Origin: Kangiellaceae bacterium
GTDB taxonomy: Bacteria; Pseudomonadota; Gammaproteobacteria; Enterobacterales; Kangiellaceae
Direction of reading: 5' to 3'
Length of the DNA stretch: 34,624 bases
Assembly (NCBI GenBank): GCA_026196875.1
Contig: JAPHTP010000149.1
Span: 1 to 34,624, forward strand
Under the pieces are notes generated by a model, which did not search any database, was not told the origin of the DNA, and was given only the letters and a program-made list of their open reading frames with translations. Below, in pieces: positions 16,460 through 32,094 of the stretch; position 1 is the first letter of the stretch, and every line of letters starts with the position of its first letter. The position numbers were made by a program, and so were the translations under genes.

Positions 16460-19400
16460 ATGTCCTCACCCTGTTGTCGAAAAGAAACATTAGTGTGTTT
16501 TAAATGGATTATTCTTTCGTTACTGGTTTCTTTTTATTCAAATTACACTTTTGCTGCCTTTGTAAACGCGGGACCTCCGATCACTCGAATTAATCATGTC
16601 GGTGAAGTAAAAACAGACTCAATTGGCTTTGCAATGCAAGATAGCCAAGGATTTTTGTGGCTCGTTAAATCCACAGGATTGTTTCGTTATGATGGTCTGA
16701 GGGTGAAGCAACCTCCTGGTTTGGAACCGTTTAATGCAGGTAATGTCACTGCGCTCTTAGAAGGGCGTGCAGGCAATGTTTGGATTGGCACGAAAAACCA
16801 GGGTTTAGTAAATTACAACCCAAGAACGATGGCCGTTTCCTATCACGATTTAAATGAGCAGTTTGGATTGGATTCCGGTCGAAATAAGGTAGATACGCTT
16901 TATTACCGCGCAGGAAGGCTCTTTCTAGCCAGCGGCCATCAAGTAATTGTTATTGACGAAGAAACGCTGTCAACCATTGAGCAGATCAATATTCCGTTAC
17001 ACAAGAATGATTATTTATTTAGATTAATGGTTGATTCTAAAGGCACAATTTGGGGGGCCAGCGTAAATGAGTCAGGCCTTATCAGGTATGCAGATGGCAA
17101 TCTGAAAATATTTAAACACGATGTTAAAGATCCAAAAAGTTTGAGAAACCAATTCGTTGTTAACTTTTTAGAAGATAGTCAAGGACGATTGTGGCTCGGG
17201 ACTTTGGCCGGATTAGAGCGCTTTGAACCAGAAACTGAAAGTTTTGTTCATTTCCAGTTGTTAGACAAATCCAGCAAGTTCTTTCAATCAAAAGGCGCAA
17301 TTGCCAATTTGACCACTAGCCTAGTGGAAGATTCAGAAGGGAACTTATGGCTAGGAACTCAATTTAGCGGTCTGTTTAAATTTGACCCGAAAACTGAGAC
17401 TTTCCAACATTTCCCCAAGGTGAAAGGGGCAGAGTCAACAATTTCGAGCAATATTATTTATGGTGGATTACTGCTTGATCGCGATCAAAGGCTTTGGATG
17501 ATGACTCATTTGGGAATAGCGCAGTTAAGTCTTGAAGAACGTAATGCAAATCATTGGATAAATCTCGGTGAGCAAGACTGTTCTCCATTGAGAATGCTCG
17601 AAGTTGGAGACTCATTCATGTTTGCTTGCCAAAATAAGCTCATGCGCTTAGATGGTGAGCAAAAGGTCGCGGTTCTTAAGGAGTTTCAAGAAAATATTTT
17701 GACCATTGCTGCGGATCTGGAAAGTCGACTTTGGATCGGTACTGCCGGTGGTGGCATCTATAGGCTAAGCCAGACTAACGATAGTTCGACCGGGTATTCA
17801 TTTAAGAGTGATAAAAAGTCACCGCTAGGTGTTAACGCCATAATGCAATTAAAAATAGGCGTTGATGGAGAGCTGTATGGATTGTCGCTTGAGCATACTG
17901 AAGCAGAAGGATCCGCATTACTCCGTTTCGATTCAAAAACCGATAAATTTAGCCAATTCAGGGTTGGAACCAGGATCTCGGATTTCGTTGATATTGATAA
18001 TCGAAGCTTATTATTAGTTGCTGATCATACTTTAAACCCAGAAAAAACACTTTTTATATTTGATAAACAAACTGAATCTGTTACGCAACTACCCCATTTG
18101 GTTGGCCAAGTATTTGCTGCGATTTATTGGAAGGGCGGCCTATGGGTTAGTAGTGAAAAACTCGGACTCATTGTACTGGACCATGTCACAGGAAGCATTC
18201 GAAAGATTGAATCGAAGCAGCTTAAAGCTATCAGTGGCTTTTACATCAATGGCTCGGATGAATTGCTACTATCTAATACGCAAGAGCTGCATCTTTTTGA
18301 AGGCGTAGCGGATGATGTGATTAAGACTCATTGCCTGAGTTGTTCTCTCAGCTTCGACGAGTATGAGCTCAATCATGGCCAGAGTGCTCAATTGTTCAAT
18401 CGCAACGCTTGGGTTTTTTCGCGTGATCAGTTTTTTATTGGATCACTAAATAAATTAGTAAGCTTCGACTTAACCAAGTTTAAACGGAGTCCTGAATCCA
18501 TCTCTGAACCAACACCGAGAGTCGGCAAGTTATTGCTGACTGATTTTAAGGTGATGAATCGTTCAGTGATGCCTGCCAATCATTTTAAGGAAAGATTTCA
18601 AAAAGAAAAAACGCAGCCAGAAGAAACTGGCAGTTATCAAAATAACCAAGTCATACCTTTGACTGAAAGTATCGAAACGATATCTAAAATAACTCTAGCT
18701 CCGGAAACGCCGATGTTTTCATTATACTTTGGGCGGTTAGGATTTAAGAATAGAAGCAGGATTAAATATGTCTACCAAATGCAAGGACTGAGCGAAGAGT
18801 GGATAGAGGCGGAGTCCTCAGATCCAAAAGCTGTTTTCTCCGAACTTAATCCTGGAAACTATACTTTTAATGTCAAAGCAAGCGATTCGCTGGGAAACTG
18901 GAGTGGTCTTGAAGCACCATTATCGGTTGCGATCGAGGTATTACCGCCTTGGTGGCATACCTGGTGGGCTTATACCTTATACATCTTGTTTGGACTCGGA
19001 GTATCTGCGCTTTTTATTCGCTTGTATGTCCGACAGAAAATAGCGGAGAGTGCGCGTCAAAGTGCGCTTGAACTCACCGCAACTAAAGAACAGCTGTTCG
19101 CCAATTTATCACATGAGTTTCGAACGCCGCTCACATTGATTTTGGGCCCGGCTGGTTCGATTAAGCGAGCTACGCGGGATGAAAATTCTAGTCAGAATGA
19201 AAAGATTAGTCAGAATATTTCGTTGATTGAACGAAATGCCCGTCGACTATTATCCATGGTCGATCAGCTGTTGTCGCTTGCTAAGCTCAAAGAAGATCAA
19301 AGCAATCCCGTGGTTATTCAGCAAGTGCAACCTGTCTGTAGTTTTGCCCTTGAGTCATTTAGTTCAATTGCAGTTGAAAAAGACATTGAAATAACCCAAC

Positions 19401-20845
19401 AAGGCGAGTTGGAAAGTAATATTTGGGTTAAAGCGACAGAGCAGGCTCTCGAAACGATTCTATTTAATTTGCTAGGTAATGCAATGAAGTACACGCCGCA
19501 GGGCGGACGGGTTTCACTTCAAATCGAATGTCAGCTTCAAATGGTCGAATTTCAAGTCTCCGATACTGGCTGTGGTATCGAGTTGGAGCAACAAGCTTTG
19601 GTATTCGAACGATTTACTCGACTCGATGCTCACTCTTCGCAAATACCCGGTGCAGGAATTGGACTCGCGCTAGTTAAAGAACTAGTTACTTCATTAGGTG
19701 GAAATATAAGCTTAAATAGCGGGCCGGGGCAGGGTAGTTGCTTTAAATTCACATTGCCTTCAGCTTCTGAATTTGAAATTGATGAATTCAAGAATCGAGC
19801 ACGAACTAAACGGTTATCACCCAATGGCTCAGATGACCTGTCTATTCGAACTGCCGCAATCGATTTGATTGGCTCTTTTAACCTTGAAACCAAAGGCTCT
19901 AGTTCAATAGAGGTTTTTTCCGAACCAGTAGATAATTTTTCACAAGATAAAAGTGAAGGCCGCCCGAGCCTTTTGATTGTCGAAGATAATCCTGATTTAC
20001 GAAACTTTTTACGGCGAAGTTTTGAAGACAAATATCAAGTTTTTGAGGCCAATGACGGTAAACAAGGATTTGATACCGCGCTTTCCCAATCCCCCGATAT
20101 CATCGTTTCTGACGTAATGATGCCGGTATTGGATGGCTTCGAACTATTAGAGGCGGTGAGAAATGAAATGGCGATTTGCCATATTCCCGTTGTATTACTT
20201 ACCGCAAAAGGTGACAAGGAGAGTAAGCTGAAAGGCATATCCGGGTTGGCTGATGACTATATTACAAAACCATTCGATATCGATGAGCTGAGTCAAAGAC
20301 TTGAAAATCTGCTCGGAATTCGTTCCGTTCTTCAATCGCGGTTTACTAAAAACGGATTAAATGCTGGATTAAACACCGATGATTTTCGTATGGGATCTCA
20401 GCAAGAGTCTGCGAGTAGAAAACACACAGAATCAGTAAAATTAGAATTAGCTCCCATGTTAGGCAAAAAAACTCATAATGGTCTGATGTTAGATAAAGAC
20501 GCTGCCTTTTTCGATCGGTTTACTCAAGTGGTCAGTAATGAGTACGCCGATCCCGAGCTCAGTGTGTCCAGAGTTTCTGTCCAGCTAGCAATGAGTGATC
20601 GCCAACTTCAAAGAAAACTCAAAGCCGTGATAGGCTCAAGTTTTAGTGATCTTCTAAGAGAGTATCGACTCGAACAAAGCTGTGTGTTACTCAAAGCAAG
20701 TTCAAACAGCGAAATGCAAATCGCAGTGATAGCCGACAAAGTTGGATTTCGCTCTAGTAACTATTTTACTCGTTGTTTCAAGGCCCGTTTTGAATTGACA
20801 CCAAATGAGTTTCGCAAGGCTCATGGTGACACTTGCGAAGTGTAA
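16460..20845 (+). CDS. hybrid one-piece two-component regulator (propeller - Y_Y_Y - kinase - receiver - AraC)
   Basis: 1461 residues, the HTCS architecture. A signal or anchor segment (FKWIILSLLVSFYS) is followed by a periplasmic two-bladed propeller (about 40-710) with repeats such as GNVWIGTKNQGLVNYNP, GRLWLGTLAGLERFEPE and GNLWLGTQFSGLFKFDP. Next come a Y_Y_Y domain (about 750-825), a membrane helix (about 833-858), a HisKA domain with phospho-His H885 (LSHEFRTPLT), a HATPase (NLLGNAMKYTP, DTGCGIE, GAGIGLALV), and a receiver (VEDNPDL; D1218 in VSDVMMPVLDG; K1270). The AraC helix-turn-helix (about 1355-1460) reads LAMSDRQLQRKLK and GFRSSNYFTRCFK. It senses a periplasmic ligand and binds DNA directly. 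The start may instead be GTG 16493, since neither has a clear ribosome site. Its neighbours suggest peptide or protein degradation products as signal. Confidence 0.93.
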   Translation: MSSPCCRKETLVCFKWIILSLLVSFYSNYTFAAFVNAGPPITRINHVGEVKTDSIGFAMQDSQGFLWLVKSTGLFRYDGLRVKQPPGLEPFNAGNVTALLEGRAGNVWIGTKNQGLVNYNPRTMAVSYHDLNEQFGLDSGRNKVDTLYYRAGRLFLASGHQVIVIDEETLSTIEQINIPLHKNDYLFRLMVDSKGTIWGASVNESGLIRYADGNLKIFKHDVKDPKSLRNQFVVNFLEDSQGRLWLGTLAGLERFEPETESFVHFQLLDKSSKFFQSKGAIANLTTSLVEDSEGNLWLGTQFSGLFKFDPKTETFQHFPKVKGAESTISSNIIYGGLLLDRDQRLWMMTHLGIAQLSLEERNANHWINLGEQDCSPLRMLEVGDSFMFACQNKLMRLDGEQKVAVLKEFQENILTIAADLESRLWIGTAGGGIYRLSQTNDSSTGYSFKSDKKSPLGVNAIMQLKIGVDGELYGLSLEHTEAEGSALLRFDSKTDKFSQFRVGTRISDFVDIDNRSLLLVADHTLNPEKTLFIFDKQTESVTQLPHLVGQVFAAIYWKGGLWVSSEKLGLIVLDHVTGSIRKIESKQLKAISGFYINGSDELLLSNTQELHLFEGVADDVIKTHCLSCSLSFDEYELNHGQSAQLFNRNAWVFSRDQFFIGSLNKLVSFDLTKFKRSPESISEPTPRVGKLLLTDFKVMNRSVMPANHFKERFQKEKTQPEETGSYQNNQVIPLTESIETISKITLAPETPMFSLYFGRLGFKNRSRIKYVYQMQGLSEEWIEAESSDPKAVFSELNPGNYTFNVKASDSLGNWSGLEAPLSVAIEVLPPWWHTWWAYTLYILFGLGVSALFIRLYVRQKIAESARQSALELTATKEQLFANLSHEFRTPLTLILGPAGSIKRATRDENSSQNEKISQNISLIERNARRLLSMVDQLLSLAKLKEDQSNPVVIQQVQPVCSFALESFSSIAVEKDIEITQQGELESNIWVKATEQALETILFNLLGNAMKYTPQGGRVSLQIECQLQMVEFQVSDTGCGIELEQQALVFERFTRLDAHSSQIPGAGIGLALVKELVTSLGGNISLNSGPGQGSCFKFTLPSASEFEIDEFKNRARTKRLSPNGSDDLSIRTAAIDLIGSFNLETKGSSSIEVFSEPVDNFSQDKSEGRPSLLIVEDNPDLRNFLRRSFEDKYQVFEANDGKQGFDTALSQSPDIIVSDVMMPVLDGFELLEAVRNEMAICHIPVVLLTAKGDKESKLKGISGLADDYITKPFDIDELSQRLENLLGIRSVLQSRFTKNGLNAGLNTDDFRMGSQQESASRKHTESVKLELAPMLGKKTHNGLMLDKDAAFFDRFTQVVSNEYADPELSVSRVSVQLAMSDRQLQRKLKAVIGSSFSDLLREYRLEQSCVLLKASSNSEMQIAVIADKVGFRSSNYFTRCFKARFELTPNEFRKAHGDTCEV

Positions 20846-23392: not shown

Positions 23393-24700
23393 ATGATGCG
23401 AATGCTGAAGTTTATAATCCTCATGTTTTTCTCACTTAATCTCATGGCCAACCAGCCGCTTCATGACGAAGTAAAAGAGCTACCTAAGTTAATCAAAGCA
23501 AAAGCCTATGTGGATGTGGCTGAAGGTAAGTTGATTTCACCGGCAAACATTCTAGTGAATAATGGCCTGATTATGTCAATAAATTCCAAGAATCTACCGA
23601 AAGAAGTTGAAGTCATCGACCTTCCAAATAAAGTGCTACTGCCTGGTCTGATGGATATGCATACTCATCTTGATCTGGATTTCGATGGAACCTGGGATCA
23701 TATTTTAACCAAAGAAAATGCTAGCAAGGGGGCGATTAGAGCTGTTCGAAATGCAGAGCTTACTTTGATGGCGGGCTTTACTACGGTTCGAAATATTGGA
23801 CAAGGACATATAACTCAGGAATTAGTTAACGTGGCCGTTGCTGAGGCTAACAATGAAGGATGGATTAAAGCCCCCAGTATTTTTCCAGCCGGACATATGA
23901 TTAGTATTGAAGGCGGACACGCCGATTTATCCATGGGTTATAGCGAAGGGTTGATTGAAGTCGGGCCTAATCACGGAATTGTTAATGGCGTTGATGACGT
24001 TATTAAAGCCGTGAGGTATCAGATCAAACATGGCGCAAAAGTTATTAAAATTCATGCGACTGCCGGTGTCTTGTCTTTGGAAGAGTCAGTTGGTGCCCAG
24101 CAACTGAGTGATGCAGAAATGAAAGCTGCCGTTGAAGAAGCACATCGTCATCATGTGAAAGTTGCTGCACATGCTCACGGAACAAAAGGAATCATTGCGG
24201 CAGTCAAAGCAGGTGTGGATTCAATTGAGCATGGCTCATTGATTGACAAGAAGGCAATTCGATTAATGAAATCGAGCGGAACTTACTTAGTGCCAACCAC
24301 GGGGTTAGTAGAATACATGCAACCCCTGTTGGAAAAAATGAACCCTAAGATGCGAGAAAAGTCAGAATATATTCTACCCATAGCTCAAAAGAGGTTAAGG
24401 CAGGCGATTGAGTCAGGAGTCAAAATCGCAATGGGAAGCGACTCGCCACTTATTCCTCATGGAAAAAATGCGGCTGAAATTGTCGCGCTTGTTAAGCGAG
24501 GTATGACAAACAAGCAGGCGTTGCAAGCTTCAACAATAAATTCTGCGGAGCTATTAGGGGTTGATGATCGCGGGCAGATTAAAATCGGTTTGCTAGCAGA
24601 CATCATTGCAGTAAACGGAAACCCTTTGCAAACAATAGAAGTGGTACAAAATGTCGACTTTGTAATGAAGGCCGGCGCGGTTATAAAACATGAAGAGTAG
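23393..24700 (+). CDS. secreted amidohydrolase (imidazolonepropionase/Xaa-Pro dipeptidase-like)
   Basis: 435 residues. A signal peptide (residues 1-19, LKFIILMFFSLNLMAN) exports it. Metal ligands of the amidohydrolase superfamily are visible: H90-x-H92 (LMDMHTHLD), a probable carbamylated K219 (KVIKIHATAGV), H260 (VAAHAHG), H280 (SIEHGSLID) and D350 (MGSDSPL). The group includes bacterial prolidase-like enzymes that cleave Xaa-Pro or Xaa-Lys/Arg dipeptides, as well as imidazolonepropionase-like hydrolases of unknown substrate. With the upstream secreted subtilase and PKD lipoprotein it suggests a peptide-degradation chain (inference). AAAGGCGAAAAG precedes the ATG. It is a single-gene unit, 228 nt after the lipoprotein gene. 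Confidence 0.87.
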   Translation: MMRMLKFIILMFFSLNLMANQPLHDEVKELPKLIKAKAYVDVAEGKLISPANILVNNGLIMSINSKNLPKEVEVIDLPNKVLLPGLMDMHTHLDLDFDGTWDHILTKENASKGAIRAVRNAELTLMAGFTTVRNIGQGHITQELVNVAVAEANNEGWIKAPSIFPAGHMISIEGGHADLSMGYSEGLIEVGPNHGIVNGVDDVIKAVRYQIKHGAKVIKIHATAGVLSLEESVGAQQLSDAEMKAAVEEAHRHHVKVAAHAHGTKGIIAAVKAGVDSIEHGSLIDKKAIRLMKSSGTYLVPTTGLVEYMQPLLEKMNPKMREKSEYILPIAQKRLRQAIESGVKIAMGSDSPLIPHGKNAAEIVALVKRGMTNKQALQASTINSAELLGVDDRGQIKIGLLADIIAVNGNPLQTIEVVQNVDFVMKAGAVIKHEE

Positions 24701-24733
24701 AGTTTTTACACTAATAACTCCTGGTTAAATTAT

Positions 24734-24761
24734 TTGCAACTTACTAATTCTGTGGTAGTAT
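24734..24761 (+). promoter_or_regulatory. sigma-70-type promoter of the EF-G paralog leader
   Basis: TTGCAA (24734-24739) and TAGTAT (24756-24761) are separated by 16 nt. Transcription would begin near 24768, just before the ribosome site of the leader peptide, which is the layout expected for an attenuator. Confidence 0.6.
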
Positions 24762-24786
24762 CCACTCAAAATTTCTGAGGAATCTT

Positions 24787-24885
24787 TTGACTACTAGTAT
24801 GAGTAATTCTACAAACAACAAATTTACAGACAAGAACATCGTGTGCGACTGTGATCGTTCAGCGATTTTTACTCTATATATGTAG
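24787..24885 (+). CDS. leader peptide 1 of the EF-G paralog (32 residues)
   Basis: TTG at 24787 begins a 32-codon ORF (MTTSMSNSTNNKFTDKNI, then VCDCDRSAIFTLYM). AGGA (24778-24781) stands 5 nt before the TTG, an ideal distance. The in-frame ATG at 24799 is 17 nt away and less likely. The stop TAG (24883-24885) overlaps the first base pairs of the antiterminator hairpin, so a ribosome finishing the peptide would cover that strand, as in classical attenuation. The peptide has no run of a single amino acid that would mark a biosynthetic operon. A stalling motif may lie in the Cys-Asp-Cys-Asp-Arg or C-terminal part. Recognised by position and signals, not by family. Confidence 0.65.
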   Translation: MTTSMSNSTNNKFTDKNIVCDCDRSAIFTLYM

Positions 24886-24906
24886 CCTCTAATTATTTAG
24901 GAGGCT
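24884..24906 (+). promoter_or_regulatory. antiterminator hairpin of the EF-G paralog leader
   Basis: AGCCTC (24884-24889) pairs exactly with GAGGCT (24901-24906), with TAA/TTA possible inside. The second strand is the same sequence that forms the 5' arm of the downstream terminator, so the two structures exclude each other. The first strand overlaps the stop codon of leader peptide 1. Confidence 0.6.
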
Positions 24907-24928
24907 GTAGGCCTCTTGCGTTTTTTTT
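24899..24928 (+). terminator. attenuator terminator 1
   Basis: GAGGC (24901-24905) pairs with GCCTC (24911-24915) over a TGTAG loop, extended by an outer G-T and A-T pair, then TTGCG and eight T residues (24921-24928). It competes with the antiterminator for GAGGCT. Confidence 0.7.
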
Positions 24929-24962
24929 AACCCCGTTGGCCGAAAGCTTCCGGGGTTTTTTA
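24929..24962 (+). terminator. terminator 2 in the EF-G paralog leader
   Basis: AACCCCG (24929-24935) and CGGGGTT (24951-24957) enclose a 15-nt loop and are followed by a T-rich run. It directly abuts the U-tract of terminator 1. GGAGGCT (24900-24906) can also pair with AGCTTCC (24945-24951; one G-T wobble), which would disturb this stem. Confidence 0.7.
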
Positions 24963-25006
24963 TTTGTTTTTTTACAAACTAATTTTAAAGTATTTTGGAT
25001 ATTCAC

Positions 25007-25090
25007 ATGAGAACTTTCGATAAATTGCTATCAGCAATATTTCCCGGCCAGGGAAAGGAGTTCTCGTGCCTGCCCTCTGGTGCCGATTAA
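25007..25090 (+). CDS. possible 27-codon ORF crossing the three-way junction
   Basis: ATG 25007 to TAA 25088 encodes MRTFDKLLSAIFPGQGKEF then SCLPSGAD. It spans the entire structured element at 25009-25065, so a ribosome translating it would melt the stem that hides the next ribosome site. Its own Shine-Dalgarno site is weak, and it may be chance. It overlaps the following upstream ORF by 25 nt in another frame. Confidence 0.3.
   Translation: MRTFDKLLSAIFPGQGKEFSCLPSGAD
25009..25065 (+). promoter_or_regulatory. predicted RNA three-way junction masking a ribosome site
   Basis: The outer stem GAGAACT (25009-25015) pairs with AGTTCTC (25059-25065). Inside are two perfect hairpins, ATTGCT/AGCAAT (25024-25029, 25033-25038) and TTTCCC/GGGAAA (25040-25045, 25051-25056). 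The 3' strands of the second hairpin and the outer stem contain AAAGGAG (25054-25060), the ribosome site of the GTG at 25066. All pairs are Watson-Crick. Folding is by eye, not by energy calculation. Confidence 0.6.
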
Positions 25091-25176
25091 AGCAGCAAGC
25101 TTTATTTAAAGATCGAGTAACTCTATGCTCTTGCTATTCAAGGGCGAGTAAATTTTTAAAAAGGAAAAAGAAATGA
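25066..25176 (+). CDS. leader peptide 2 / upstream ORF translationally coupled to the EF-G paralog (36 residues)
   Basis: GTG 25066 follows a perfect AAAGGAG by 5 nt. The ORF encodes MPALWCRLKQQALFKDRVTL then CSCYSRASKFLKRKKK and ends in TGA (25174-25176), which overlaps the EF-G paralog ATG (25173-25175) as ATGA. Such an overlap is typical of translational coupling. The strong ribosome site is buried in the three-way junction, so exposure of that site would switch on both. The Lys/Arg-rich end coincides with the A-rich EF-G ribosome site (AAGGA, 25161-25165), so its composition may simply reflect that. No family is recognised. Confidence 0.6.
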   Translation: MPALWCRLKQQALFKDRVTLCSCYSRASKFLKRKKK

Positions 25177-27221
25177 AACTCGATAAATTAAGAAATATTG
25201 GTATTGTTGCTCACGTTGACGCTGGTAAAACGACTTTAACAGAACGTTTATTATTTGTAGCGGGCGCTACTCATTATATTGGTAATGTTGATAGTGGTAA
25301 TACGACCACAGATTCGAGTGCGCAAGAAAAAGCGAAAGGGATCACCATCTCTAGTGCGGCAGTCTCTGTAGACTGGAATGATAGTCGAATTAATATCATC
25401 GACACTCCAGGGCACATTGACTTTCATGTGGAAGTACATCGTTCATTACGCGTGCTTGATGGTGCGGTCTTTGTTTTCGATAGTGTTGCTGGCGTTGAGC
25501 CTCAGTCAGAAGCCAATTGGAGGCTAGCAGAACAATATAAGGTCCCTAGAATTGCATTGGTCAATAAAATGGATCGCATTGGTGCTGACTTTGAAAAAGT
25601 TCTAGCAATGATCGATGAAAGATTAGGCACGAATCCGGTTGCAGTTCAATTACCGATTGGTAATGAACATAATTTCCAAGGCGTGATTGATCTCGTTTCA
25701 ATGAAGGCTCTAGTTTGGAATGACGATTCAAGTACTGGTTTTGAAGAGCGAGAAATCCCTGATGCTTTAATTTCTAAAGTAAAGGAATATCGTGCTTATC
25801 TTGAAGAGCAAGTCGTTGAACTTGATGAAGAGGCATTACTCGATTGGTTGGCGCATGGGAATTTGGAGAATGAAGTTTTAGAGAAGCTTGTTCGACAAGC
25901 AACTTTGGCTAGACATTGTGTTCCAGTTCTGTGTGCATCGGCTTTTAAAAACAAAGCGATCCAGCCGGTATTGAATGCAGTAGAGAAGTTCTTGCCATCA
26001 CCCTTGGAAGTTGAAGCAATATCAGCTACAAAAATTGACAGTAAAGAGACGATAACTCTAGGAGTTAGTTCCTCTGAAGAAGTATCTGCTTTGGCATTTA
26101 AAGTTGTGAATGACTCTCACGGAAGTTTAACTTACTTGCGAGTTTATAGTGGAACTTTGAAAACTGGTGATAAGTTGCTAAATACATCAAAAGGTAAGCT
26201 TGAACGGATCGGCCGAATCTACCAAATGCATGCTGACAAAAAAGTTGCCAGAGGCCAAGCTTCGGCAGGTGAAATTGTTGCCATAATGGGAGCAAAGGTT
26301 ACAGGGACTGGTGATACATTATGTTCGCAAAGTCTTCCTATACTTTTGGAACGTATTGAGATCCCTCGTTCGGTGATAGACATTGTTATTGAAGCAAAGT
26401 CGAAAGAAGATGCAACTAAATTGTCTCACGCATTAGATAAAATGCTTGCTGAAGATCCTAGCTTGAAATTACAAGTTAATGATTTAGGGCAGTCGGTTTT
26501 GTCTGGTCTTGGAGAGCTTCATCTTGAAATCGTGGTTGATAAATTGAAGACAGACTTTAATGTCGAAGCTCTAACTGGACGACCACAAGTTGCTTATCAA
26601 GAAACTTTAACTAAATCGGTTGAAGTTACATATAGACATAAGAAACAAGATGGAGGCCCAGGGCAATTTGCAGTTGTTCGAATCTTATTTGAATCAATTG
26701 ATTCTGATGAGATCAAATTTGAGAACAAGATTGTCGGTGGCACAATTCCTAGGGAGTTTATCCAAGGCGTCGAAAAAGGTATCCGTGAGGCAGCTCAATC
26801 TGGAGTTGTTGCTGGTTATCCATGTAAAGGATTCGAAGCGACATTGATTGATGGTGAAACTCATGAAAATGACTCTTCGTTGTTAGCTTTCCAAATCGCT
26901 GGAAAAGAAGCTTTCAAGAAGGCTGCCGTGCAAATGGAACCAGTTCTTATGGAGCCAGTAATGAAGGTCGATGTGGTCACACCGCTAGGCTATATTGGAG
27001 ATTGTATTGGTGATTTGTCCTCCAAACGAGGAATGGTGACTGGACAAGAGGCCAATGGAGCTAATGTTGTAATCACTGCAAGTGTGCCTTTAGCCGAAAT
27101 GTTTGGTTATATCGGGCACCTTAGGTCGTTAACTTCTGGTCGCGCAAGCTTTTCGATGGGTTTTGAAAAGTATGCTCGAGTACCTAAGGATTTGGTCAAT
27201 AAGATCATTGGAGGTAAATAA
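25173..27221 (+). CDS. elongation factor G paralog (translational GTPase)
   Basis: 682 residues, slightly shorter than the housekeeping EF-G (about 700). EF-G catalyses tRNA-mRNA translocation and, with RRF, ribosome recycling. The G domain shows AHVDAGKTTLTERLL, KGITISSAA, DTPGHIDF (catalytic His81) and NKMDR. Domains II-III follow. Domain IV has the GGPGQFAVV loop and THENDSS with His564, which aligns with the translocation-critical His583 of E. coli EF-G. Domain V ends in FGYIGHLRSLTSGRASFSM. All catalytic residues are kept, so it should be active. It lies alone, without rpsL/rpsG/tufA, so it is not the str-operon copy. Resistance to an EF-G or ribosome inhibitor, or a stress role, is inferred from its attenuator leader. 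It is closer to EF-G than to Tet(M), though the leader logic is similar. Confidence 0.9.
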   Translation: MKLDKLRNIGIVAHVDAGKTTLTERLLFVAGATHYIGNVDSGNTTTDSSAQEKAKGITISSAAVSVDWNDSRINIIDTPGHIDFHVEVHRSLRVLDGAVFVFDSVAGVEPQSEANWRLAEQYKVPRIALVNKMDRIGADFEKVLAMIDERLGTNPVAVQLPIGNEHNFQGVIDLVSMKALVWNDDSSTGFEEREIPDALISKVKEYRAYLEEQVVELDEEALLDWLAHGNLENEVLEKLVRQATLARHCVPVLCASAFKNKAIQPVLNAVEKFLPSPLEVEAISATKIDSKETITLGVSSSEEVSALAFKVVNDSHGSLTYLRVYSGTLKTGDKLLNTSKGKLERIGRIYQMHADKKVARGQASAGEIVAIMGAKVTGTGDTLCSQSLPILLERIEIPRSVIDIVIEAKSKEDATKLSHALDKMLAEDPSLKLQVNDLGQSVLSGLGELHLEIVVDKLKTDFNVEALTGRPQVAYQETLTKSVEVTYRHKKQDGGPGQFAVVRILFESIDSDEIKFENKIVGGTIPREFIQGVEKGIREAAQSGVVAGYPCKGFEATLIDGETHENDSSLLAFQIAGKEAFKKAAVQMEPVLMEPVMKVDVVTPLGYIGDCIGDLSSKRGMVTGQEANGANVVITASVPLAEMFGYIGHLRSLTSGRASFSMGFEKYARVPKDLVNKIIGGK

Positions 27222-28678: not shown

Positions 28679-29626
28679 ATGAATAAAATACAAGTTGATC
28701 TGGGGAGTTGTCCTGTTGATAGATGGAGATTGGAGGAAAAACTTGTTCGACAAACAAAGGAACTTATTAGTTTTTATCTAGATGACATAGGACTGAGTGG
28801 TGATGGACTAGCATTAATCGATGATGCTCTCCTCAGTATAATTCCAGGCGACTATTTAAATGAAATTGAAGGTTTGGCAAGACAATGTGAGCTATCTTCA
28901 AAGGAACTAGTTGCTGGAAATCTTTACTATGATTTTATGAAAATGGTTTTCGGGTGTACCGCTTTTAGTGCTCCAACACCTGATGGACCGTTTCACTGCC
29001 GAAATCTTGACTGGTTGGCTGAAGAAAGAGCCCTATCTCGCTTTACACTAGTGACCGAATTTATCAATGGCCCTTGTGGAAAATTTATAACCGTTGGTTG
29101 GCCGGGAGTTGTTGGTGCCTTGTCTGGAGTCGCCAACGGTAGATTCGCAATTACTTTGAATGCAGCAATGAGTAGTGACAAGGTCGATATGGGTTTTCCT
29201 ATTGCATTTCTAATTCGAAGTGTTTTGGAAAGGGTAACAAGCTTTGATGAGGCAGTTGAGATACTTTCTCACACAGAAATTCCATGTGATTGCCTTTTGT
29301 TGATAACGGGAATAAATAATAAGCAAGCAGTTGTGATAGAAAGAACTCCCAAAAGGTTTGCACATCGTTGGGCAAAAGACGGGAAAGTAGGCGTTACGAA
29401 CGATTTTCATATATTGGAGAATTATTCGGCGGTGGATATTTCTGATAATGAACTGGTTGCGACCTCTTGTGGGCGTTTCAATCGGACTAATGAGCTACTA
29501 CAAACTCAGTTACCTAAGAGCTTTGCTGATTGTTATGATTTTTTAAGTGATGAAAAGGTGAAAATGCAGATCACCGAGCAGCAGATGGTGTTTCAAGCTT
29601 CAACCGGAAGAGTAGATGTTAGATGA
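28679..29626 (+). CDS. C45-type / acid-ceramidase-like Ntn hydrolase
   Basis: 315 residues. The motif FGCTAFSAPTPDG followed by FHCRNLDW matches the penicillin-V acylase/acid ceramidase/C45 acyltransferase branch of Ntn hydrolases. There autoproteolysis before Cys93 would free the nucleophile, while R108 and D111 (RNLDW) complete the site. NGRFAITLNA and VTNDFH are further family elements. The N-terminal 92 residues would be the small subunit. Members hydrolyse or transfer fatty acyl amides (N-acyl-ethanolamines, ceramides) or penicillin side chains. The substrate here is unknown. No signal peptide is seen, so it is cytoplasmic. It follows a small AraC regulator and may be its target. Confidence 0.8.
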   Translation: MNKIQVDLGSCPVDRWRLEEKLVRQTKELISFYLDDIGLSGDGLALIDDALLSIIPGDYLNEIEGLARQCELSSKELVAGNLYYDFMKMVFGCTAFSAPTPDGPFHCRNLDWLAEERALSRFTLVTEFINGPCGKFITVGWPGVVGALSGVANGRFAITLNAAMSSDKVDMGFPIAFLIRSVLERVTSFDEAVEILSHTEIPCDCLLLITGINNKQAVVIERTPKRFAHRWAKDGKVGVTNDFHILENYSAVDISDNELVATSCGRFNRTNELLQTQLPKSFADCYDFLSDEKVKMQITEQQMVFQASTGRVDVR

Positions 29627-31556: not shown

Positions 31557-31838
31557 ATGAAAAAGACATTCAACCTTGTTCATCCCAAAATAAAGGTCGC
31601 TCGTATGGTCGACTCTGTTAAACACGAAATCAAAAAGTATTTGAAGAGAGAACGAAACAAACCATTGCCAGAAGACGCTGGTTACTGGGATTTTGATTGT
31701 CGTTTCGGCCCAACCGAGGAAAATACTTCACCGATTCATGTTACAGAGATTAATAAAAATATTGATAAAGCAGAGGCGGATGGTTTGACATCTTTTTACG
31801 TTGAGATCCTGGCTAAACCAGGCAAGAAGAAAAGCTAG
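31557..31838 (+). CDS. DUF6172 family protein
   Basis: 93 residues. The start MKKTFNLVHPKIKVARMVDS and the core EDAGYWDFDCRFGPTEENT with FYVEILAKPGKK match a compact conserved family of marine gammaproteobacteria (DUF6172). The family has no known activity. It is basic overall with a conserved Trp/Asp/Cys centre. AGGAAA about 5-10 nt before the ATG serves as ribosome site. It is followed 13 nt later by the VF530 gene, and the two are probably co-transcribed. Confidence 0.75.
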   Translation: MKKTFNLVHPKIKVARMVDSVKHEIKKYLKRERNKPLPEDAGYWDFDCRFGPTEENTSPIHVTEINKNIDKAEADGLTSFYVEILAKPGKKKS

Positions 31839-31851
31839 CTATATCTACTAT

Positions 31852-32094
31852 ATGAACCATCAAAATTCAAATGACTTATTGCATGGTGTTAAATTAGAAG
31901 CCATCGTTTCAAAGTTGGTTGAATATTACGGTTGGTCACAGTTGGCCAGCCAGATCGACATAAAATGCTTCAAAGATAATCCTTCGGTTAAATCGAGTTT
32001 AAAGTTTTTGCGTAGAACTTCTTGGGCGAGACAAAAAATTGAGCTCCTATATCTTGAAACTTTTAGTTCAAATAACCCTTGGGGGTCAACCTGA
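31852..32094 (+). CDS. VF530 family DNA-binding protein (DUF2132)
   Basis: 80 residues from ATG 31852. Upstream in-frame codons to 31801 overlap the previous gene and do not belong. The sequence NDLLHGVKLEAIVSKLVEYY GWSQLASQIDIKCF and PSVKSSLKFLRRTSWARQKI ELLYL is the VF530 signature, a small all-alpha SAP-like fold that binds double-stranded DNA. The precise cellular role is not known. The acidic/Asn tail SSNNPWGST is variable. It probably forms an operon with the DUF6172 gene. Confidence 0.8.
   Translation: MNHQNSNDLLHGVKLEAIVSKLVEYYGWSQLASQIDIKCFKDNPSVKSSLKFLRRTSWARQKIELLYLETFSSNNPWGST

Follow-up and report, generated by a model that had tools for sequence, protein, structure and literature searches.

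We found that the EF-G gene described here, a spare copy, is probably controlled by a tandem leader-peptide attenuator, of which the structured RNA just ahead of the gene would form the second half. The window (the whole stretch of 34,624 nucleotides that we analyzed, contig JAPHTP010000149.1 of a Kangiellaceae bacterium) has two short open reading frames, uORF1 and uORF2, upstream of this gene, together with the other elements listed in Table 1. Comparison of 14 leaders, including that of the window, supports, at the level of sequence, the two-peptide layout, the competing strands, the terminator after uORF1 and the distinct EF-G paralog. From these we infer the direction of the switch, the signal, and the role of the three-way junction.

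Table 1. Features of the leader and of the gene that it precedes (positions in the window).
Feature	Positions	Strand	Remarks
Likely promoter of the leader	24734..24761	+	TTGCAA, 16 nt, TAGTAT; read by eye, putative
uORF1 (leader peptide 1)	24787..24885	+	Ends in CDCDRSAIFTLYM before the stop codon; probable TTG start at 24787; in-frame ATG at 24799
Attenuator 1 strands	24886..24918	+	A 24886-24890, B 24898-24906, C 24910-24918; A:B and B:C are competing helices
Intrinsic terminator hairpin and T run	24929..24961	+	Strands D and E, 24929-24957; by folding; behind attenuator 1
Three-way-junction RNA inside uORF2	25006..25068	+	By folding, in the window and G019; closing stem pairs the uORF2 start codon
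uORF2 (leader peptide 2)	25007..25090	+	MRTFDKLLSAIFPGQGKEFSCLPSGAD, then stop; ATG 25007, 27 codons; conserved peptide
GTG ORF overlapping the EF-G ATG	25066..25176	+	Present; judged a by-product, not a conserved gene
Possible attenuator 2 strands	25094..25146	+	A 25094-25099, B 25126-25135, C 25139-25146; weak T run; p 0.02 and 0.04
EF-G, third full-length EF-G of the genome	25173..27221	+	682 aa; NCBIfam TIGR00484; the regulated gene

Relatives of the window EF-G were found in few genomes. In a set of 61 genomes (that of the window and 60 relatives), a close relative (62% identity) was present in G019 alone; the others had matches of 50% or less. EF-G searches of 369 genomes of the class gave G636 and G399, and then G681. 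From 398 genomes of the phylum, G1090, a genome of the same class, was picked by eye, its EF-G aligning from residue 1 at 57%. G1297 and G1358 came from 150 genomes of the order of G1090, and 155 relatives of G1358 yielded 10 genomes at threshold, seven of them new and three already known. A second draw of 383 genomes from the class gave no additional member of the EF-G clade, and no clade member was recognized in 40 genomes of the order of G636 or in three of the order of G399. At most 2 or 3 EF-G candidates were scored per genome in the large draws, and a third EF-G could be missed there. Matches of ~51-56% in the phylum draw and in the search of the order of G636 were classed as ordinary FusA, and the leader comparison covers neither these nor 32 loci (42-50% identity) found by scanning genome contigs with the window EF-G. 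Outside one family, the distribution of the spare EF-G is therefore rare and patchy. We also looked in mobile elements. The uORF2 peptide of the window had no match in phages and the peptide of G636 had none in phages or plasmids. Viral contigs contained no junction core and, by the patterns used, no EF-G relative. In plasmids every EF-G match was below 60% identity (leaders there left unopened).

The EF-G encoded in the window matches TIGR00484 in a profile search with 852.6 bits (cut-off 659.4) over residues 1-679, and the two further full-length EF-Gs of the same genome are only 49% and 47% identical to it. In a tree of 44 rows (the 14 members and 30 others picked from many more matches), all 14 leader-bearing EF-Gs fell on one 100/96 branch with one leaderless row, L083 of G681. 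Ordinary EF-Gs, including both from the window's genome and both from G399, were separate from the 14-member clade. The P-loop and DTPGH are retained in the first seven members that we found, and an alignment of these seven largely retains the GTPase motifs and two domain IV loops. Of 196 near-invariant EF-G columns, defined on 19 other EF-Gs, 144 were kept in all seven and 7 were lost in all seven. As regards translocase activity, the GTPase motifs and the loop residues of domain IV appear mostly intact in these members. The positions that differ in all seven were tabulated; none was tied to any drug. Residues 83-90 read DF[HN][VI]EV[HN]R in the first seven members and in L083, and DFTIEVER in the three ordinary EF-Gs shown. 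L083 itself (G681:C1:1724958-1727000, minus strand) is a same-clade EF-G with no leader visible by eye in the stretch upstream. Its first domain IV loop is altered, reading VRPVAGAMQF where the other rows shown read [KRV][KR]Q.GG.G.

The genes around the clade members are mostly not shared. Comparison of ~10 kb of the window with the corresponding locus of G019 (L078) matched only the EF-G, kinase-type domains (27-34%) and one small protein, and the ORF lists surrounding the other members differ by eye. Because the neighbors mostly differ, the sequences suggest, without proving, that the leader and the EF-G are one unit. The small protein (31801-32094 in the window, 17861-18364 in L078) is 46% identical over 67 residues. 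It lies downstream of the EF-G in both genomes, 4.6 and 5.9 kb off, and the genes between differ.

The leaders of the window and G019 could be aligned along their entire length. At the candidate promoter, AAATTATT and TATCC are common to both. The candidate has 8 of the 12 letters of the promoter consensus; it was not among the sites returned by a promoter scan. uORF1 of the window probably starts at the TTG at 24787, because GAGGA (24777-24781) ends five bases ahead of it and G019 has an ATG there. At the equivalent place, G019 has MNINVNTNNIKAERNTVCDRSAISVF, followed by the stop codon. We found uORF1 in 12 of the 14 leaders. That is, 12 leaders have two short ORFs ahead of EF-G and the remaining two, those of G399 and G1411, have one. 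These two leaders, and the leaderless clade member in G681, are points against a tandem attenuator. The uORF1 peptides resemble one another only loosely. Their C-termini include, besides that of the window, TVCDRSAISVF, VVSDRAYILVLID, RVCGADRAMIAVSG and RVCGADHALLAFHT, each followed by the stop codon, and a [DN][RH][AS] motif was seen by eye near the end in several leaders.

We searched downstream of each uORF for competing strands, in which A starts no more than 11 nt past the stop codon, B pairs with A, and C pairs with B. The helices of attenuator 1 in the window had p values of 0.027 and 0.043 in two versions of the scoring. In the first 13 modules, competing strands were scored in 11 (Fisher p 2e-10 against dinucleotide shuffles, the relatives not being independent of one another). 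With one mismatch allowed, all 12 leaders with uORF1 had such strands after it, 8 of them at p <0.05. The letters of the strands vary by group (GGAGG, GGAAGG, AGCGGAAGG and others). The best C strand was not always the nearest one, and in G019 it was located in the terminator. The C strand of G1090 has a further partner in the terminator, whose 5' arm it pairs with (CCUGCCGGG with CCCGGCAGG), and shorter pairing was seen elsewhere by eye.

A terminator-like hairpin with a T run was found by script after uORF1 in 11 of 12 leaders, and in G1417 one was seen by eye. The best site chosen by the script was the B:C hairpin in the window, rather than the hairpin at 24929-24957, and a repeat in G1358. 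In the leader of G1358 (L130, ~1095-1205), an inverted repeat of the CCCCCTTTTTGAAGGGGG type between attenuator 1 and uORF2 resembles by eye a small repeat insertion. Equilibrium folds of all 12 uORF1 modules, inspected by eye, contained the terminator hairpin both with strand A free and with A masked; for attenuator 1 of the window, the entire fold was identical in the two cases. Because the terminator is kept in 12 of 12 modules, we lowered our confidence in the tandem attenuator. Because masking A brings no change at equilibrium, the proposed switch must act during transcription, and would need co-transcriptional kinetics.

The tandem attenuator would work as follows. Ribosomes that finish uORF1 would cover strand A just behind the stop codon, allowing B:C and the terminator to form, and transcription would stop. 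If elongation fails on uORF1, or if uORF1 is untranslated, A:B would form during transcription and C would invade the terminator. RNA polymerase would then continue to a second checkpoint at uORF2, and from there into the EF-G gene. Production of the spare EF-G would thus respond to impaired translation, perhaps to a defect in translocation itself. Candidate signals are a translocation inhibitor, low EF-G, or generally slow elongation.

uORF2 was found in all 14 leaders. In 12 of these it contains an ungapped block of 25 codons ending in Gly25 (for example, MRTFDKLLSAIFPGQGKEFSCLPSG in the window and MRTYDKLIATIRSSQGKGGLRPSFG in G1410). G636 and G399 have a variant, GRG...AKGY[VL]CLGVFR. Past codon 25 the sequence varies, and the length of the peptide ranges from 27 to 58 residues. 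Over the 25 codons, the window and G019 differ at 2, 3 and 8 sites in codon positions 1, 2 and 3, respectively. Mean pairwise differences among all 12 block members were 6.3, 5.56 and 8.3, so that position 3 exceeded the other two modestly.

Attenuator 2 appears, from the leader sequences, to be a weak module. Competing strands were found after uORF2 in 12 of 14 leaders (none in G019 or G1407), and in 5 of the 14 at p <0.05. A terminator-like hairpin after uORF2 was found by script in 6 of 14 leaders, and G1411 has one by eye. In two leaders (L137 and L138, of G1415 and G1408) uORF2 has 58 codons and spans the place where other leaders carry attenuator 2. We also considered whether RNA 3' of uORF2 sequesters the EF-G ribosome site, and rejected this. 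In the window the site was predicted to be open (0.86 unpaired), and at 37 C it was 0.86 to 0.92 unpaired whether or not a ribosome occupied the uORF2 stop. An earlier note on this DNA had proposed a complete translational on/off switch here; on this prediction, sequestration of the EF-G ribosome site is not apparent in the window. The EF-G ribosome site of G019 was predicted to be paired (0.27-0.28 unpaired) and was unmoved by masking.

In the window and G019, the start of uORF2 folds into a three-way junction. The three stems described in the earlier note are present: stem 1 is perfect over 7 bp (25009-25015 with 25059-25065), and our fold extends it, partly by G-U pairs, to 25006-25017 with 25057-25068. 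Stem 2 pairs 25024-25029 with 25033-25038 and stem 3 pairs 25040-25045 with 25051-25056. The closing stem pairs GTG 25066 with the CAU of the upstream ATG at 25007, which the note leaves unmentioned. Energy-based folding of 24985-25180, the check proposed in the note, gave an unexceptional result for the whole region (z -1.32, with 16 of 200 shuffles folding as well), but the 70-nt fold stood out at -25.4 kcal/mol, where shuffles gave -12.9 +/- 2.7 (z -4.69, with none of 200 reaching it). Against 1000 synonymous recodings of the start of uORF2, z was -4.27 in the window and -3.41 in G019; the value for the window indicates that the fold exceeds both chance and what the peptide demands. The corresponding z in the other 12 leaders lay between -0.79 and +2.48, and their minimum-energy folds had no junction, leaving the junction in 2 of 14.

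The junctions of the window and G019 are identical in 62 of 80 columns, with one pair changed on both sides. A covariance model built on these two sequences found 6 of the 12 other leaders at uORF2 with scores of 10.9 to 20.4 bits, compared to 102.5 and 104.8 for the two themselves, and we read the weak scores as shared codons. A search of other genomes with this model, also proposed in the note, returned the junction only in the window and G019, both among 394 genomes of the order (E 0.01) and among 40 of the family (E 1). We took a further match of 21.8 bits in the window's own genome as chance; by eye it resembles coding sequence. Also set aside was a 36-bp stretch of this genome that matches the leader. 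It lies just downstream of the C69 EF-G gene, between that gene and another, and has by eye the look of a terminator. The uORF2s of the window and G019 have identical codons at 14 of 20 positions, compared to 8.1 expected from the EF-G genes (P 0.0034). Codon identity is not by itself evidence for the junction, because three of four other close pairs, all lacking a junction, had a similar excess (P 0.0032, 0.026 and 0.017; the fourth, 0.13). Taken together, the sequences and the folding predictions indicate that the junction is probably selected, local to the lineage of the window, and overlaid on a conserved peptide. The earlier suggestion of a structured RNA behind a transcriptional attenuator holds.

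The fold would also affect the loading of ribosomes. AUG 25007 was predicted to be 0.51 unpaired when 60 nt had been transcribed and 0.00 at 65 nt; in G019 the values were 0.52 and 0.05. Pairing of the AUG alone is not special, because the uORF2 AUG is also paired in G1090 and G1297, which lack the junction. In the lineage of the window, the junction overlaps uORF2 and would close its AUG only once transcription has proceeded about 60-65 nt. The probable effect is to restrict uORF2 to fast-loading ribosomes, so that uORF2 could act as a timer for free ribosomes; this is the weakest step of the proposed mechanism. If true, one RNA stretch has been selected simultaneously as peptide and as structure in this lineage.

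The earlier note had interpreted the same region differently, in that the junction would mask the ribosome site for an ORF starting at the GTG, and the ATGA overlap would couple this ORF to EF-G. Every piece of this arrangement is present in the window. AAAGGAG lies at 25054-25060 with the GTG five bases on, the frame has 36 codons, and its TGA overlaps the ATG at 25173. There is also a precedent for a GTG-started second leader peptide in another frame, ermBL2 (PMC8274638). The comparison, however, leaves this reading very improbable, and we rejected the GTG ORF as a gene. A frame at the GTG position overlaps EF-G in only 1 of 14 leaders, and 12 of 14 keep the EF-G gene and lack both the stems and the GTG ORF, the outcome that the note itself had set as a refutation. 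G019 has the GTG, but there the frame runs for only 13 codons and leaves 82 nt to EF-G. AAAGGAG is accounted for by codons GGA-AAG-GAG of the conserved ATG frame. Thus the note was right that a second upstream ORF precedes EF-G, and mistook its frame, which begins at ATG 25007. Nor is the stop/start overlap as unlikely by chance as had been argued. Such overlaps arise readily, because 6 of the 13 other leaders have some short frame (at least 10 codons, at places other than GTG 25066) whose end lies no more than 15 nt from the start of EF-G. In one of the six, that of G399, the overlap is of a similar kind, and some other downstream frame may be coupled to EF-G in single leaders.

It is also unlikely, somewhat less so than coupling through the GTG, that the junction serves to bind a ligand or a protein (as a riboswitch-like element, or as a target of EF-G or of a ribosomal protein) and overlaps uORF2 only secondarily. 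The strong stability of the fold in two leaders after correction by synonymous recoding, and the one compensatory pair, would fit such an element, which the note had also raised. Against it, the fold was not seen in 12 of 14 homologous leaders and no Rfam family matched at threshold. Over the whole window only a tRNA matched Rfam; in 24700-25250 nothing reached the gathering score, and the best weak match (25088-25175) had 20.9 bits compared to a gathering score of 49.9. A slightly smaller chance goes to uORF2 encoding a small trans-acting protein, with the leader layout incidental. The ungapped block (25 residues in 12 of 14) is what one would point to in its favor. Variation past codon 25, the wide range of lengths and the quite different uORF2 of two members speak against a trans-acting product, as does its occurrence here only ahead of this EF-G clade, although it was sought in that way. 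The arrangement of a stop codon followed by competing strands suits a cis-acting leader. We therefore prefer the tandem leader-peptide attenuator. A more specific version of it can be offered only tentatively: both peptides might read the translocation state of the ribosome, in an inducible target-replacement circuit in which the divergent EF-G replaces an ordinary EF-G that has failed or is blocked, with the RNA of uORF2 also timing loading.

By analogy, the layout matches ribosome-mediated attenuation as in vmlR and hflXr, doubled as in mgtCBR. In the vmlR leader of Bacillus subtilis, stalling on a uORF is described as blocking an anti-antiterminator, which lets an antiterminator form and a factor that protects translation be produced, with transcription and translation attenuation combined (PMC9226507). 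The account of vmlR names a single uORF and an ABCF product in a Gram-positive host, whereas here there are two peptides and a full EF-G in genomes of the class Gammaproteobacteria (PMC9226507). The hflXr (lmo0762) leader rli80 of Listeria likewise precedes a homolog of a translation factor and is reported to use ribosome-dependent transcription attenuation at a 14-aa ORF; it has an RLR macrolide motif and one attenuator, and none of the 26 leader peptides here has an RLR motif (PMC6310831). The mgtCBR leader of Salmonella is likewise double, and each of its two consecutive short ORFs is linked to attenuation and responds to a different signal. As described, however, these ORFs answer to ATP and proline-charged tRNA, and control mgtC and the Mg2+ transporter gene mgtB (PMC3641672). 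Attenuators before fusA in the str operon concern the operon copy and are discussed, in the source cited, as ribosomal-protein leaders, unlike the stand-alone paralog with leader peptides found here (PMC2965389). Staphylococcal fusB resembles our case in having a leader peptide before a gene that acts on EF-G, but FusB is described as a small EF-G-binding protein and here the product is EF-G (PMC12561750). A uORF and a proposed attenuator have also been described upstream of obgE, with no EF-G involved in that account (PMC8297930). The kind of mechanism is known. Among the titles and opening lines of abstracts listed by our search of limited, mostly open-access literature, none described an EF-G paralog under leader peptides, two-peptide and other tandem leaders included, and the same literature gave no mention of the leader peptide strings CDRSAI, RTFDKLL, GREFSCL, GKEFSCL, IFPGQG, GYVCLG, KGYLCLG, GYVCLGVFR, CLGVFRG or CLGVFRA.

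Many bacteria carry extra EF-G genes of unclear role. Duplicated EF-Gs are the subject of a study that describes EFG I, spdEFG1, spdEFG2 and EFG II, with lateral transfer and some copies outside the str operon, a likeness to the genes found here (PMC3150367). The parts of that study drawn on here describe no leader peptides, and our clade may correspond to one of its groups, e.g., its recent beta/gamma EFG I copies (PMC3150367). A leader-bearing EF-G clade would provide a handle on the purpose of an extra EF-G, as whatever stalls the peptides would be the stress that is answered. In addition, MRT[FY]DK...QG...S[SF]G and [DN][RH][AS] are candidate new ribosome arrest sequences. MRT[FY]DK may resemble the macrolide-stalled ErmBL peptide, given the Asp-Lys likeness. 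For ErmBL, stalling at Asp10 and residues R7-K11 are described (PMC8274638).

Two other genes of the window were noted in passing. The one at 28679-29626, just 3' of an AraC-type regulator, encodes a C45 family autoproteolytic acyltransferase, for which we saw no link to EF-G. The one at 16460-20845 encodes a large hybrid two-component regulator with propeller, kinase, receiver and AraC domains.
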